The notes beneath the pieces are model-generated. The model worked only from the letters and a program-made list of their open reading frames with translations, was not told where the DNA came from and did not search any database. Of a DNA stretch of 64,000 nt, positions 19,002-29,165 are shown one piece after another. Positions within the stretch are counted from its first letter, which is position 1; each line of letters opens with the position of its first letter. Made by a program: the position numbers and the translations under genes. Source of the DNA: Chloroflexota bacterium (lineage in GTDB: Bacteria; Chloroflexota; Dehalococcoidia; E44-bin15); assembly GCA_030604825.1 (NCBI GenBank), contig JAUVVB010000008.1, positions 1 through 64,000 of the forward strand, read 5' to 3'.

Positions 19002-20231
19002 TTACTCCTCAGCCTTGCTTTCTCCGATAAGCCTCTCCCCATACTCCAGGAGCACCTTGGGGTCAATGTCTGGCTTCTTGGTCTCCAGATAGGCTTTCAG
19101 CGCCTCAAGGGGTGTCATCCCCTCGGCGGAAAGCCCGCTCAGCCGGGGGCGGTGCTCCCGCTGCACATCCCGGGCGATGGCGGCGATGAAATGGGCATCC
19201 TTCAATGCCCTCCGAATCTCCCCCTCCTGAAGCATCCCCTCCAGCCCCTCCGGGATCTGGACCTGAAGTCGAACTATGCTGTCCTTTATCCTGTGCCGGG
19301 CGATGGCGCGCAGCACTGCGGCGGTGGGGTCGGGCTCTTGGGCAGAGATATCAACCTTGATGGTGAGAAATGGGCGCGCCTTGACGGAATGGAATTCAAA
19401 GGACGTCCGCCTTTCAGCCCCCTGCTCTATTTCAACGATATAGAACCCCTTTTCATCCCCCTCCTCGCTGAAGTCGATGCGCTCCAGGCTTCCTGAGTAG
19501 ACCACCGGCGGGCTCTGGGAGAGGACCTGTCGCCTGTGGATGTGGCCCAGGGCGACATAATCGAAGGCGGGGTCGGCCACCACGCTGGGGAGGAGCGTGT
19601 AGTCGCGGCCCATCATCATCCCCCTCTCCGAGCCCATTTGAGCACCGTGCACCAGGACATGCGCTGCCAGGATAGCGGGCAGTTCTGGGTCCAGCGCCTC
19701 GACCGCGGCCTTCAGGTATTGGGTCAATCTCTCCGCAATCCTCTCGTTTACCTCATCCAGGGTGAGGTTTTTCGTCTCCTCCCTAGAGAGCAGCCCGCTT
19801 CTCTTGGCCCAGGGCAGGGCCACGATCTGGAGAGGCCCGCTTTTGGTGTCGATCCTGTAGGTGCCAGCCTTACTGGCCACGGTAACGTTCTCTATCGCCA
19901 GGGTGTCGAATATCTCTATGGAGGTGGCGCGCCAGAAGGCGCTGGGCTGATCGTGGTTGCCGATGAGGAGGAAGACGGGTATGCCCCCTGATGCCAGCTT
20001 CCAGATGCGCCTGGCAAACTCCCGCTGCTGGGTCTGGGAGGGCTCGCGGCTCTTGTAGGCGTCGCCGCAGAAGAGCACCAACTCAACCTTTTCGCTCAGG
20101 GCGTATTCCACCACCTCATCGAAGGTGGAGAGGAAATCGTGGAGCCGCCATGAGAGCCCGGTCTCGGGATCGATGCCCCCGCTGTAGTTCTCCACCCCCA
20201 GGTGCAGGTCGGCGAAATGAAGGACTTTCAT
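19002..20231 (-). CDS. sbcD: DNA repair exonuclease SbcD/Mre11-like
   Basis: MKVLHFADLHLGVENYSGGIDPETGLSWRLHDFLSTFDEVVEYAL..LFCGDAYKSREPS..LIGNHDQPSAF..AAHVLVHGAQMGSERGM..ALGHIHRRQVL. Confidence 0.92.
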   Translation of the reverse strand: MKVLHFADLHLGVENYSGGIDPETGLSWRLHDFLSTFDEVVEYALSEKVELVLFCGDAYKSREPSQTQQREFARRIWKLASGGIPVFLLIGNHDQPSAFWRATSIEIFDTLAIENVTVASKAGTYRIDTKSGPLQIVALPWAKRSGLLSREETKNLTLDEVNERIAERLTQYLKAAVEALDPELPAILAAHVLVHGAQMGSERGMMMGRDYTLLPSVVADPAFDYVALGHIHRRQVLSQSPPVVYSGSLERIDFSEEGDEKGFYIVEIEQGAERRTSFEFHSVKARPFLTIKVDISAQEPDPTAAVLRAIARHRIKDSIVRLQVQIPEGLEGMLQEGEIRRALKDAHFIAAIARDVQREHRPRLSGLSAEGMTPLEALKAYLETKKPDIDPKVLLEYGERLIGESKAEE

Positions 20232-20235
20232 GTCG

Positions 20236-20622
20236 TCAATCCAAAAGCCTCCTCTCGCCCTCTATCGTCTTGATGTCGGTTATATCCTGGGTGACCTCCA
20301 GGCAGCCGATGTAGCTTCCCGATTTGTCCCGGACGGGGAAGTAGCGTATCAATATCATCCGCCCCTTGAGGTTGATCCAGAATTGGGCGACATCCCTTTT
20401 TCCTGCCCGAAAATCTTCCAGTATTTGATTTACCACGTGCACGCTTTCCTGGGGATGACAGTTCTGGACCTTCATGCCGATGACGGAAGGGGTCCTTCTG
20501 AAGATGCGCTGGTCTCCCTTGCTATAGTACCTTACCACATCGTCCTTATCCACAAAGGAGACCTCAACCGGCAGCGCATCAAAGATGGCGGCGATGGTCT
20601 CAGTTGACAGTTTGTCCAGCAT
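20236..20622 (-). CDS. PAS-domain protein (DUF438 C-terminal-like)
   Basis: ALPVEVSFVDKDDVVRYYSKGDQRIFRRTPSVIGMKVQNCHPQESVHVVNQILEDFRAGKRDVAQFWINLKGRMILIRYFPVRDKSGSYIGCLEVTQDIT. Confidence 0.85.
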   Translation of the reverse strand: MLDKLSTETIAAIFDALPVEVSFVDKDDVVRYYSKGDQRIFRRTPSVIGMKVQNCHPQESVHVVNQILEDFRAGKRDVAQFWINLKGRMILIRYFPVRDKSGSYIGCLEVTQDITDIKTIEGERRLLD

Positions 20623-20636
20623 GGTGCTCCTCCTTG

Positions 20637-20684
20637 TCAGTTCTCCACCCCCAGGTGCAGGTCGGCAAAATGAATGATTTTCAT
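20637..20684 (-). pseudogene. Relic of sbcD 5' end
   Basis: Minus: ATG AAA ATC ATT CAT TTT GCC GAC CTG CAC CTG GGG GTG GAG AAC TGA = MKIIHFADLHLGVEN*; 42/45 nt match to intact sbcD start at 20187-20231. Confidence 0.9.
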
Positions 20685-20690
20685 AATTCC

Positions 20691-21086
20691 TTAGTTAGCT
20701 CCCCGGGTCATTCGAGGCAGGCTTGCATTGCCTGGGGGAAGTTCCCAATGCTCCTCCTCGCACTCCCTCAGTCTGTCGGCTTCCAAGCGCCTTGCTGTGG
20801 GGCCGTTTGCCAGTGTTGCATAGCGGAACTCAAGAGCATGACCTGCTTGACGCAGCCACTTCTCTGCTCTACTGAGATACCTGTCAGGCTTACCAATGCG
20901 CTCGTCAAGGAGTCTTTTCTTAAGGCTGGGCGTAGCTGAGCCAATATAGATTATCGAGGAAGAGCCCCTGAGCCTGCCAAATTCGAAATCCGTCCGTACT
21001 TCATAGATGCCAGGGGAGTTGGGCACAGGCACCTTTAGCGACTGCAAATCTAGCGGATGCCATTCAGACCACCTGGTTATGCTCAT
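20691..21086 (-). CDS. GIY-YIG nuclease-like protein
   Basis: VPNSPGIYEVRTDFEFGRLRGSSSIIYIGSATPSLKKRLLDERIGKPDRYLSRAEKWLRQAG..RLEADRLRECEEEHWELPPGN. Confidence 0.78.
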   Translation of the reverse strand: MSITRWSEWHPLDLQSLKVPVPNSPGIYEVRTDFEFGRLRGSSSIIYIGSATPSLKKRLLDERIGKPDRYLSRAEKWLRQAGHALEFRYATLANGPTARRLEADRLRECEEEHWELPPGNASLPRMTRGAN

Positions 21087-21139: not shown

Positions 21140-21721
21140 TTAGGCTTGGCCAGAAGGAGAGTCAGTTTGATTTACACCATACCAACGCCAGGTTAGCCTC
21201 CTTGTAAATTCGAGGAATTTCAGCGCTTGACTTTTCATCGACCCGCCAAAGTTACCTAAGTAAAGACTTGGCAACACCTGTAGTATGACATCGTCTACGC
21301 TTGAATAAAAGCTTTTTGCTATCTCAGTAAGCTTGCCAGCATTAGCGTGAGTTAGAGCGTTTCGAATTTGTCTTAAGGTGTCAATGCTCCTTTTGTCATC
21401 GCCGTTAATTATCCCAAACTTACGACATAGCCTAGTTTTCTCATCCAGCGTAAGGCACTCTACTACCTCCTGCGTGGCTTTAAAATTCCTAACCAGCGCG
21501 TCAGCGAGTGCCAATTCTACCATGGTGGCAGAAAGAAAAAGAACGCCAACGAAATGGCCGCTTATATACATATCGATAGCTTGACCGCTATAGTCCCAAA
21601 TCAACTGCGGGAGTCCCCCTCTGTATTCGATGGGACTTAGTTCATTTCGCCTAGCTATTCTGTCTTCCAGAGTTTCGGCATCCCTCTTTTTTAGATTTTC
21701 TCGAAATTCGTTATCATTCAT
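21140..21721 (-). CDS. HEPN-like (DUF4145-like) protein
   Basis: Alpha-helical protein with RQIRNALTH (R-x4-H, HEPN RNase-type motif). Confidence 0.55.
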   Translation of the reverse strand: MNDNEFRENLKKRDAETLEDRIARRNELSPIEYRGGLPQLIWDYSGQAIDMYISGHFVGVLFLSATMVELALADALVRNFKATQEVVECLTLDEKTRLCRKFGIINGDDKRSIDTLRQIRNALTHANAGKLTEIAKSFYSSVDDVILQVLPSLYLGNFGGSMKSQALKFLEFTRRLTWRWYGVNQTDSPSGQA

Positions 21722-21864: not shown

Positions 21865-21915
21865 TTACCCCTCAAAGCCCAGCCAGTAGCTGCCGCCGGG
21901 GGGGAGGACTTCCAG
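21865..21915 (-). pseudogene. Relic of glyS 3' end
   Basis: Minus: CTG GAA GTC CTC CCC CCC GGC GGC AGC TAC TGG CTG GGC TTT GAG GGG TAA = [16 protein letters not shown]; 49/51 nt match to intact glyS end at 22479-22529, both differences synonymous. Confidence 0.92.
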
Positions 21916-21924
21916 CGCCCAAGA

Positions 21925-22449
21925 TTATTTGTCTTGACCCCTCGCCAGCCCCCGTATGTAGGCTATTTGGCCCACGTGCTGAGCTAACTCGCAGAGCAGA
22001 TGGCCTATCAGGTTGCCGATGGCAACTTCGCCGAAGATGCGGGATTTCACTATCTCATCGAATTTGGCAGGGTCGAGCTGGCGCACGTAGTCCAGAGTTC
22101 GAACTCGCACTGCCTCCCCATAGGCAAGGAGGTCGCGCAGCTGGACGGCGGGGAAGCTGTCCACCTGCTCGGCGGTATAGCCGTAGCCGGTAATTCTGGG
22201 ATCATCAGGCAGGTTCAGCTTCTCATGCCATTTCTCCGACTCCCAGACCTGAGGTGTGCGCTGGAACATGTACTGGAAAAACCAGTCCTCCACTCGCAGC
22301 ATATGCCACAGAATGAAGGCGATATGGTTTGCTCCGGGCTGCGGCTGCCACATCAGCTCTTCCTGACTCAGTCCGTCCACCGCCTGGATGAGGGCTGCCT
22401 GCGTATCGTTCAGGCCCTGCAGGATAGAATCCTTCACCTCCATCTTCAT
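21925..22449 (-). CDS. DinB family protein
   Basis: ILQGLNDTQAALIQAVDGLSQEELMWQPQPGANHIAFILWHMLRVEDWFFQ..GNLIGHLLCELAQHVGQIAYIRGLARG. Confidence 0.9.
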   Translation of the reverse strand: MKMEVKDSILQGLNDTQAALIQAVDGLSQEELMWQPQPGANHIAFILWHMLRVEDWFFQYMFQRTPQVWESEKWHEKLNLPDDPRITGYGYTAEQVDSFPAVQLRDLLAYGEAVRVRTLDYVRQLDPAKFDEIVKSRIFGEVAIGNLIGHLLCELAQHVGQIAYIRGLARGQDK

Positions 22450-22478: not shown

Positions 22479-23843
22479 CTACCCCTCAAAGCCCAGCCAG
22501 TAGCTGCCGCCGGGGGGCAGGACTTCCAGGGGCTCGCCGCTTAGCTTGGCCTCAAGGCTTTCCTTCAGCTCCGCCAGCGGCACCCGAATCTGCTTCATGC
22601 TGTCCCTCTCCCTTATGGTTACCTGGTTGTCCTCCAGCGATTGGAAATCTATGGTGATACAGAAGGGGGTGCCGATCTCATCCTGCCTGCGATAGCGTCT
22701 GCCGATGCTCTGGGCATCATCGTACTGGGTCATGAAGCACTGGCGCAGGTCGGCGTAAACATCCTTGGCCATGGGGATCAGCGCCTCGTTCCGGCTCAGG
22801 GGGAGGACGGCAACCTTTACCGGTGCCAGGTCGGGGTGGAGGCGGAGCAGCACCCTGATCTCCTCCTTATCCGGCTCCTCATCGTAGGCATCGATGAGGA
22901 AGGCGAGGGCAGAGCGGTCCACCCCTGCCGAGGGCTCGATGACATAGGGGAGGTAACGTTCTTCCGTATCCGGGTCGTAGTAGCTGAGGTCCTTGCCGCT
23001 ATACTGGGAGTGCCGGGCAAGGTCGAAGTCTCCCCTGTTGGCGATGCCCTCCAGCTCCGCCCATCCCATGGGGTAGAGGTACTCGATATCGTAGCAGGCG
23101 CGGGCGTAGTGGGCCAGCTCATCCTGGGAGTGCTCCCTGAGGCGGAGGTTCTCCCCCTTGATGCCCAGCTTGATATACCAGTTCAAGCGCTCATCAAGCC
23201 AGTACTTAAGCCACTGCTCATCGGTTCCCGGCTTGACGAAGAACTCCACCTCCATCATCTCGAACTCGCGGGTTCTGAAAGTGAAGTTGCCTACGGTGAT
23301 CTCGTTCCTGAAGGCCTTGCCGATCTGGGCGATGCCGAAGGGCAGCTTCTTCCTTGATGTGTCCATCACATTGGCGAAGTTGACGAAAATTCCCTGTGCC
23401 GTCTCGGGGCGAAGGTAAACCGTCTGCGCCTCGTCCTCAACGGAGCCGAAGAGGGTCTTGAACATCAGGTTGAACATTCGGGGCTCGGTGAGCTCGCCGC
23501 CGCAGGCGGGGCACTTGCCATCCTTGGCCTCATCGGCGCGCCAGCGCTGGTGGCACGACTTGCACTCCACCAATGGGTCCTTAAATCCCTCCACATGCCC
23601 GCTGGCAACCCATGTCTGGGGGTGCATCAGGACGCTGGAGTCCAGACCCACCATATCATCCCTTTGCTGGACCATGCAGCGCCACCAGGCTGCCTTGACG
23701 TTGTTCTTAAGCTCCACCCCCAGCGGTCCATAGTCCCAGCAGGCGGAGAGCCCACCATAGATCTCGCTGGACTGGAAGATGAAGCCGCGCCGCTTACACA
23801 GGGAGGCCAACTTTTCCAGGTCTACTTTGCTTCCCACCTTCAA
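22479..23843 (-). CDS. glyS: Glycyl-tRNA synthetase (single-chain type)
   Basis: [84 protein letters not shown]. Confidence 0.95.
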
Positions 23844-28375: not shown

Positions 28376-28744
28376 TCAAAGGTCCTTGAGGGGCCCGGGC
28401 ATCTCCCCTTCCCTGGCAGCGTCGATCATCTCACGAACCTCGGAGAAGGTGTTCCAGTACTCTTCGCTGCGCATATCCATCCCCAGCTCCTTGAGGCGGT
28501 GCTCCGCCCAACTCCCGATGTTGCGCGGGTCCTTGTAGTGGTCGGGGCCTCCGTAGGGCTGGGGTGGGCCTGCCCCCTCAAGGCGGGTCTGCTCCGATTT
28601 GTGATAGGCAAAGCTGGAGATCACCCGGCTCAGCTCCCTATTGCCACAGTAGGGGCACTGGGGAGATAGGGTTTCGGTGACCCTCCTCACCAAAAGGCTC
28701 ACCTTCTTTTGACAGCCATCGCAGCGAAACTCATAGATGGGCAT
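28376..28744 (-). CDS. FmdB-type zinc-ribbon protein
   Basis: MPIYEFRCDGCQKKVSLLVRRVTETLSPQCPYCGNRELSRVIS. Confidence 0.88.
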   Translation of the reverse strand: MPIYEFRCDGCQKKVSLLVRRVTETLSPQCPYCGNRELSRVISSFAYHKSEQTRLEGAGPPQPYGGPDHYKDPRNIGSWAEHRLKELGMDMRSEEYWNTFSEVREMIDAAREGEMPGPLKDL

Positions 28745-28757
28745 CTCAGATCACCCC

Positions 28758-29099
28758 TCATTCCACCTCTTCCTGGGGCATCTCCCCGTGCTCCATCCTT
28801 TCCAGCATCTCTTCATGCTCAGGGGAGACCTCCTCGTCCATTCCTCTGCTCATCCTCTTATTCCACTCCGCCAGAGCCCTGGGGTCATTTCGCATCAAAC
28901 CATCCGTCAACCGGCGGTCGGAAAGGATATCCTCATAGATCTCCATATGGCTTGCCCCTTTGCGCACGGCGAAGGGGGAAAAGAGGCGAACCAGCTCCTC
29001 TCCGCCACATGAGGGGCATTTGGGCGATGCGGAGAAATCTCGAAGATAGATGGAAACCCTGCGTCGACAGCTTTGGCACCGATATTCGTAGATGGGCAT
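28758..29099 (-). CDS. FmdB-type zinc-ribbon protein (tandem paralog)
   Basis: MPIYEYRCQSCRRRVSIYLRDFSASPKCPSCGGEELVRLFSPFAV. Confidence 0.88.
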   Translation of the reverse strand: MPIYEYRCQSCRRRVSIYLRDFSASPKCPSCGGEELVRLFSPFAVRKGASHMEIYEDILSDRRLTDGLMRNDPRALAEWNKRMSRGMDEEVSPEHEEMLERMEHGEMPQEEVE

Positions 29100-29165
29100 G
29101 AAGCCTCACCCCTTGCCTCTTTGTGCCAATTTTAACATATCCCGGTAAATAGGTAAATGTGGGCT

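Follow-up and report, generated by a model that had tools for sequence, protein, structure and literature searches.

A duplicated sbcD start beside a PAS-domain gene in a Chloroflexota genome: a probable scar of one-sided recombination at a gene end

Introduction

How does a bacterial gene come to have a second copy of its own first codons a few hundred nucleotides upstream? The case considered here is in a 64,000-nucleotide stretch of DNA from a Chloroflexota bacterium (GenBank assembly GCA_030604825.1, contig JAUVVB010000008.1, positions 1 to 64,000; called the window below). A short open reading frame (ORF) at 20637..20684 on the minus strand repeats the start of the intact sbcD gene (19002..20231, minus strand; 409 aa; PF00149 and tblastn to relatives), and between the two lies a gene for a 128-aa PAS-domain protein (20236..20622, minus strand). 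An initial annotation, made from the letters alone, called the short ORF a relic of the sbcD 5' end and proposed that the PAS gene had arrived together with, or by recombination into, an sbcD allele from a diverged donor. From the comparison with related genomes reported below, we consider this idea broadly right. The relic probably represents the recipient's former sbcD start, left in place by a one-sided recombination that brought the PAS gene together with a donor start, and we put the probability of this reading at roughly 0.7.

Results

Read from 20684 to 20637 on the minus strand, the short ORF is ATGAAAATCATTCATTTTGCCGACCTGCACCTGGGGGTGGAGAACTGA, which translates to MKIIHFADLHLGVEN followed by a stop codon. 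When it is aligned with the first 45 nt of sbcD (starting at 20231, minus strand), there are three mismatches, at positions 7, 10 and 18, which relative to the sbcD start give V3I, L4I and one silent change; the alignment thus confirms the 15-codon copy, with three differences in 45 nt and two V/L to I changes, that had been described at first. As a direct repeat, the two copies extend over 46 nt with an identity of 93.5% (20639-20684 and 20186-20231, the latter being the 5' end of the resident sbcD on the minus strand), and the insert between them, the PAS cargo, is 407 bp long. The likeness starts exactly at the ATG, and the preceding bases are unlike (GGAATT vs GACGAC). The relic starts 6 nt past the stop codon of a 131-aa ORF (20691..21086, minus strand), in agreement with the earlier placement, and the PAS identity of the cargo is solid (PF13596, E 6e-30). 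The repeat is far above chance: aligned locally with the DNA upstream of it, the sbcD start scores 82, while 426 control searches with pieces from inside sbcD reached 38 at most. A dispersed repeat was also considered and rejected, as in the family genomes the sbcD peptide matches only sbcD and copies close upstream of sbcD.

Because the ORF is intact and ends with a stop codon in the window, it could be taken for a functional leader peptide. We rejected this as the least credible of the explanations, since most genomes differ in what follows the relic, and the eroded relics of two relatives (L026 and L027) begin with ATA instead of ATG. A conserved independent peptide, the finding that the initial annotation had set against a scar, was looked for in the relatives; the ORF is not conserved there, and we read the feature as the first 15 codons of a probably older sbcD closed by a chance stop.

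The same anatomy recurs with other cargo. Upstream of sbcD, 6 of the 11 family genomes checked, counting the window's own, carry a further copy of the sbcD 5' end: it is found in the window, L002, L023 and L025, and in an eroded form in L026 and L027. The scores of the two eroded relics fall in the control range, and so they were accepted on position and flanking homology only. L002, a Chloroflexota metagenome-assembled genome (MAG), has the order DUF167-PAS-relic-HicBA-sbcD, with a repeat of 51/51 nt; L023 has relic-DUF167-HicBA-sbcD, an order shared by L027; L025 has DUF167-relic-HicA remnant-alcohol dehydrogenase-sbcD (the HicA remnant and the alcohol dehydrogenase are named from sequence); and in L026 the relic lies beside HicBA, 4.8 kb upstream of sbcD. 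One more clear sbcD relic was found among 60 further class loci, in L101 of another family. The cargo at the sbcD scars therefore varies among PAS, HicBA, DUF167 and alcohol dehydrogenase.

Cargo and host gene are also found next to each other without a relic, as DUF167-PAS-sbcD start in L002, as DUF167 directly before sbcD in L022, L024 and L028, and as glyS...DinB in L027. In L002, the PAS homologue, which is 89.7% identical to that of the window, lies directly before an sbcD start and has no relic upstream of it. Elsewhere in the class, PAS homologues are mostly on contigs different from that of sbcD, and around 19 other loci with PAS homologues no gene-end repeat was accepted, a repeat of 137 nt in L076 being left out. 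The relic/DUF167 joint of L023 lies in GGGGGT, which is common to both presumed parents. Separately, and away from sbcD, L026 (reverse complement, 1698-2340) carries HicBA, then an eroded sbcD start, and then sequence resembling the left arm of HicBA, an arrangement like that of a tandem or circular copy.

In L025 (2431-2540), the first ~106 nt of sbcD look foreign when compared with the rest, with a clear recombination breakpoint. Against L022, the mismatch rate is 0.32 over the first 106 nt and falls to 0.10 beyond them; such a step was reached in 0/2000 permutations (Fisher 1e-8), and seven control pairs gave p values of 0.08-0.94. The relic of L025 differs from its own sbcD at 13/48 positions and from the sbcD starts of every other genus at only 4-7/48. 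Taken together, the mismatch step and the relic allele indicate a foreign sbcD start on a native body, with the native start kept as the relic, and a homologous crossover in one flanking gene is located near nt 106 of sbcD. This sister genome shows directly the scenario first proposed for the window, and the combination of a foreign 5' tract with a native-type relic implies that the scar most likely marks one-sided homologous recombination.

The direction of the event in the window could also be reversed. In that case PAS-sbcD would be the resident arrangement, and a fragment ending in the 131-aa ORF and 45 nt of another sbcD would have been added upstream of PAS, replacing DUF167 and making the relic donor DNA rather than the recipient's old start. 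DUF167 does precede PAS in L002 and is absent at the window locus, and the relic is slightly nearer to the sbcD starts of L019/L021 (2 mismatches) than to that of L002 (4). However, these allele differences amount to 1-2 nt only, no homologue of the 131-aa ORF was found beside sbcD in the related loci examined, and the relic of L025 is the native allele. We regard the reversed direction as unlikely.

A second scar lies 1.2 kb from the first, at glyS (22479..23843, minus strand). A repeat scan of the window gave a 50-nt repeat with 98% identity (21866-21915 and 22480-22529): the last 50 nt of glyS, up to the stop codon, stand on both sides of a DinB_2-family gene (21925..22449, minus strand; PF12867, E 8e-20), and the resulting 3'-end relic (21866..21915, minus strand) is identical to the glyS end at 49/50 nt. 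From the two gene-end repeats, the glyS-sbcD interval holds two single-gene inserts, each oriented like its host gene. A 67% homologue of the DinB-family gene is located downstream of glyS in L027. Relics of the glyS 3' end are also present in L021, L023 and L027, each with different cargo, and in L103, of another family, around a DUF2283-like ORF named from sequence. The content of the glyS-sbcD interval differs between the genera examined.

Gene-end scars were found at other genes as well. In about 14 of the 54 HicB loci fetched, the pair is convincingly flanked on either side by duplicated host sequence, and a comparable duplication score was reached by 1 of 514 control ORFs. The translations suggest that sbcD, a BadF-like gene, uvrA, argJ (twice), secA, a DUF72 gene, tmk and a tRNA gene are among the hosts. 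The HicBA repeats of L159 and L167 were set aside as dispersed repeats, and that of L188 as two different tRNAs. Scans of genome stretches for gene-end duplications covered 797 kb from the genome of the window, which gave 6, and 424 kb of class loci, which gave 2. In G001 there were 14 in 307 kb, a rate biased upward because the contigs were chosen partly for holding HicB; none was found in the 300 kb of E. coli K-12 scanned. Doubtful automatic calls in these scans include L210, the 211-nt repeat of L224, and L249.

For example, in the genome of the window itself (L246, 6002-7355), an MFS-like gene has a copy of the uvrB 5' end (59 nt, 90%) on either side. Other cargo includes a PQ-loop gene; at thrC the cargo is a RelE-like gene, and at nadD it comprises a pyrE-like gene together with one of XRE type. 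Of the cargo assignments, those of PQ-loop, DinB, DUF167 and PAS alone were tested with Pfam. In G001 (L231, 2072-6356, contig C7), five 3'-end relics follow lysS in series, and the genes between them are small and toxin-antitoxin-like (RelE-, HicBA- and DUF433/DUF5615-like, named from sequence). Newly gained small genes flanked by duplicated ends in this and related genomes are often toxin-antitoxin pairs, and we found no description of duplications around toxin-antitoxin genes in the open-access literature.

The duplications are 27-151 nt long. With no boundary imposed, the repeats overshoot the start or stop codon by at most about 15 nt in nearly all gene-end cases, the exceptions being thrC (about 36 nt upstream of the likely ATG) and one case in L258 (44 nt). 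Such ends at start and stop codons are what one expects when the boundary is set by homology between different contexts. These properties bear on the possibility that the cargo was inserted with a long target-site duplication, by a staggered break or an unknown transposition, restoring the host gene. Such an event would account for compact cargo directly flanked by repeats, for the identity of the repeats in the young case L002, and for the HicBA loci of several families with repeats of different host genes. It should, however, ignore coding boundaries and copy the resident gene, whereas the repeats halt at start and stop codons without entering intergenic DNA, and L025 has different alleles in its relic and its resident start. 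The lengths also misfit a transposase, and neither a transposase nor terminal repeats were seen in the inserts read. We consider a target-site duplication improbable.

Site-specific integrases can also restore a gene into which an element is inserted, as SXT-type elements do at prfC. The recurrence of the same gene ends (sbcD, glyS, lysS), the restored gene and the tandem array at lysS would suit a duplicated att site of this kind. On the other hand, many unrelated gene ends are used, the inserts in the window are single genes, and no integrase-like ORF is present in the inserts listed, which are about 0.3-2.7 kb long and were annotated in part, so that an att-site origin seems highly improbable.

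Two further ORFs complete the interval in the window. The 131-aa neighbour of the relic has the GIY/YIG motif for which it was first labeled GIY-YIG, but its Pfam match to GIY_YIG_2 is sub-threshold (E 0.3). Between it and the glyS relic there is a 193-aa ORF (21140..21721, minus strand) with a weak DUF4145/HEPN-like match (E 0.015). Elsewhere in the window, a 48-nt repeat of 73% (28711-28758 and 29066-29113) lies at the beginning of two small zinc-ribbon (FmdB-like) ORFs that are next to each other and are probably tandem paralogues. At L205 (14746-17406) of the same genome, an intergenic repeat of 60-140 nt is present three times, and ORFs lie between the copies.

Discussion

Under one-sided recombination, a DNA fragment in which the PAS gene preceded the 5' part of a donor sbcD would have entered the cell and recombined homologously inside sbcD, giving a resident gene with PAS and a donor-derived start. 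At codon 15 of the recipient's sbcD, the other end of the fragment would have been attached in the absence of long homology, either directly, by homology-facilitated illegitimate recombination (HFIR), or through circularisation of the fragment and then a single crossover, and the old first 45 nt of sbcD would stay upstream. Natural transformation may have been the entry route: ComEC is present in 12 of 14 family genomes, including that of the window, which makes uptake by transformation plausible, if unproven.

In E. coli, with linear DNA homologous at one end, a partial duplication of that gene end was found in 56 of the 60 analysed clones; the duplications were 109-950 bp long and were attributed to resection, re-circularisation and single crossover, while classical HFIR was found in 4 of the 60 clones, and microhomology of 3-10 bp is frequent at HFIR joints (PMC3240628). 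Either route would lead to the anatomy seen here. The partial gene-end duplication is common to the E. coli product and the Chloroflexota scars, whereas the latter occur in natural genomes, with duplications of about 30-150 nt, small whole-gene cargo and reuse of the same gene ends.

Several points weigh against this explanation. Repeats of 30-60 nt are short for RecA-dependent recombination; the inner joints are often very close to the cargo ORF, unlike random fragment ends; most of the related genomes are fragmented assemblies, and some at least are MAGs; and no relative was found in which the 131-aa ORF is directly followed by sbcD without PAS, an arrangement that is assumed for the recipient and that the initial annotation had suggested looking for. 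The window's own sbcD belongs with these points. By glyS, the nearest relative of the window is L002 (86.7%), and the two sbcD genes agree at 89.6% in the first 270 nt and at 75.1% in the rest, a rise near the 5' end that is also seen with other relatives. A permutation test for a mosaic gave p values from 0.03 to 0.2 against most relatives and a second test gave no excess; because the signal is weak and inconsistent, it was not used as proof. Furthermore, the relic and the resident start of the window are about equally close to the relatives. From the PAS-sbcD start of L002, the same scar with other cargo, and L025, the arrival of PAS through recombination in sbcD is upheld, but the diverged donor is not borne out in the window itself. 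Our attribution rests on the anatomy and the sister cases, and the window scar presumably arose as they did.

The closest concept for the variable glyS-sbcD interval is the minimal mobile element of Neisseria, in which whole-gene cassettes between two conserved genes are placed by homologous recombination (PMC3082526); the variable gene content is the same. Minimal mobile elements rely on homology in both flanks and are defined without gene-end relics (PMC3082526), whereas at glyS-sbcD one side is apparently non-homologous and a gene-end relic is left. A two-flank homologous exchange without duplication does not describe this interval, where glyS and sbcD relics remain. The lysS locus of G001 likewise resembles integron cassette arrays in having small genes separated by similar short repeats, but the repeats are pieces of lysS and not attC, and no integrase was seen in the array.

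It is possible, although we hold the generalization only tentatively, that small genes and toxin-antitoxin pairs in this Chloroflexota group move largely as gene-end cassettes, each with landing homology from the end of its neighbour, and that the ends of sbcD, glyS and lysS would in this way gather integron-like arrays without a dedicated recombinase. Gene-end relics are a readable and orientable record of the entry of single genes into genomes, as they mark the neighbour used as homology and, where the alleles differ, the foreign side. Any genome can be searched for such relics, which could also show how toxin-antitoxin modules are spread when they have no mobility genes of their own.
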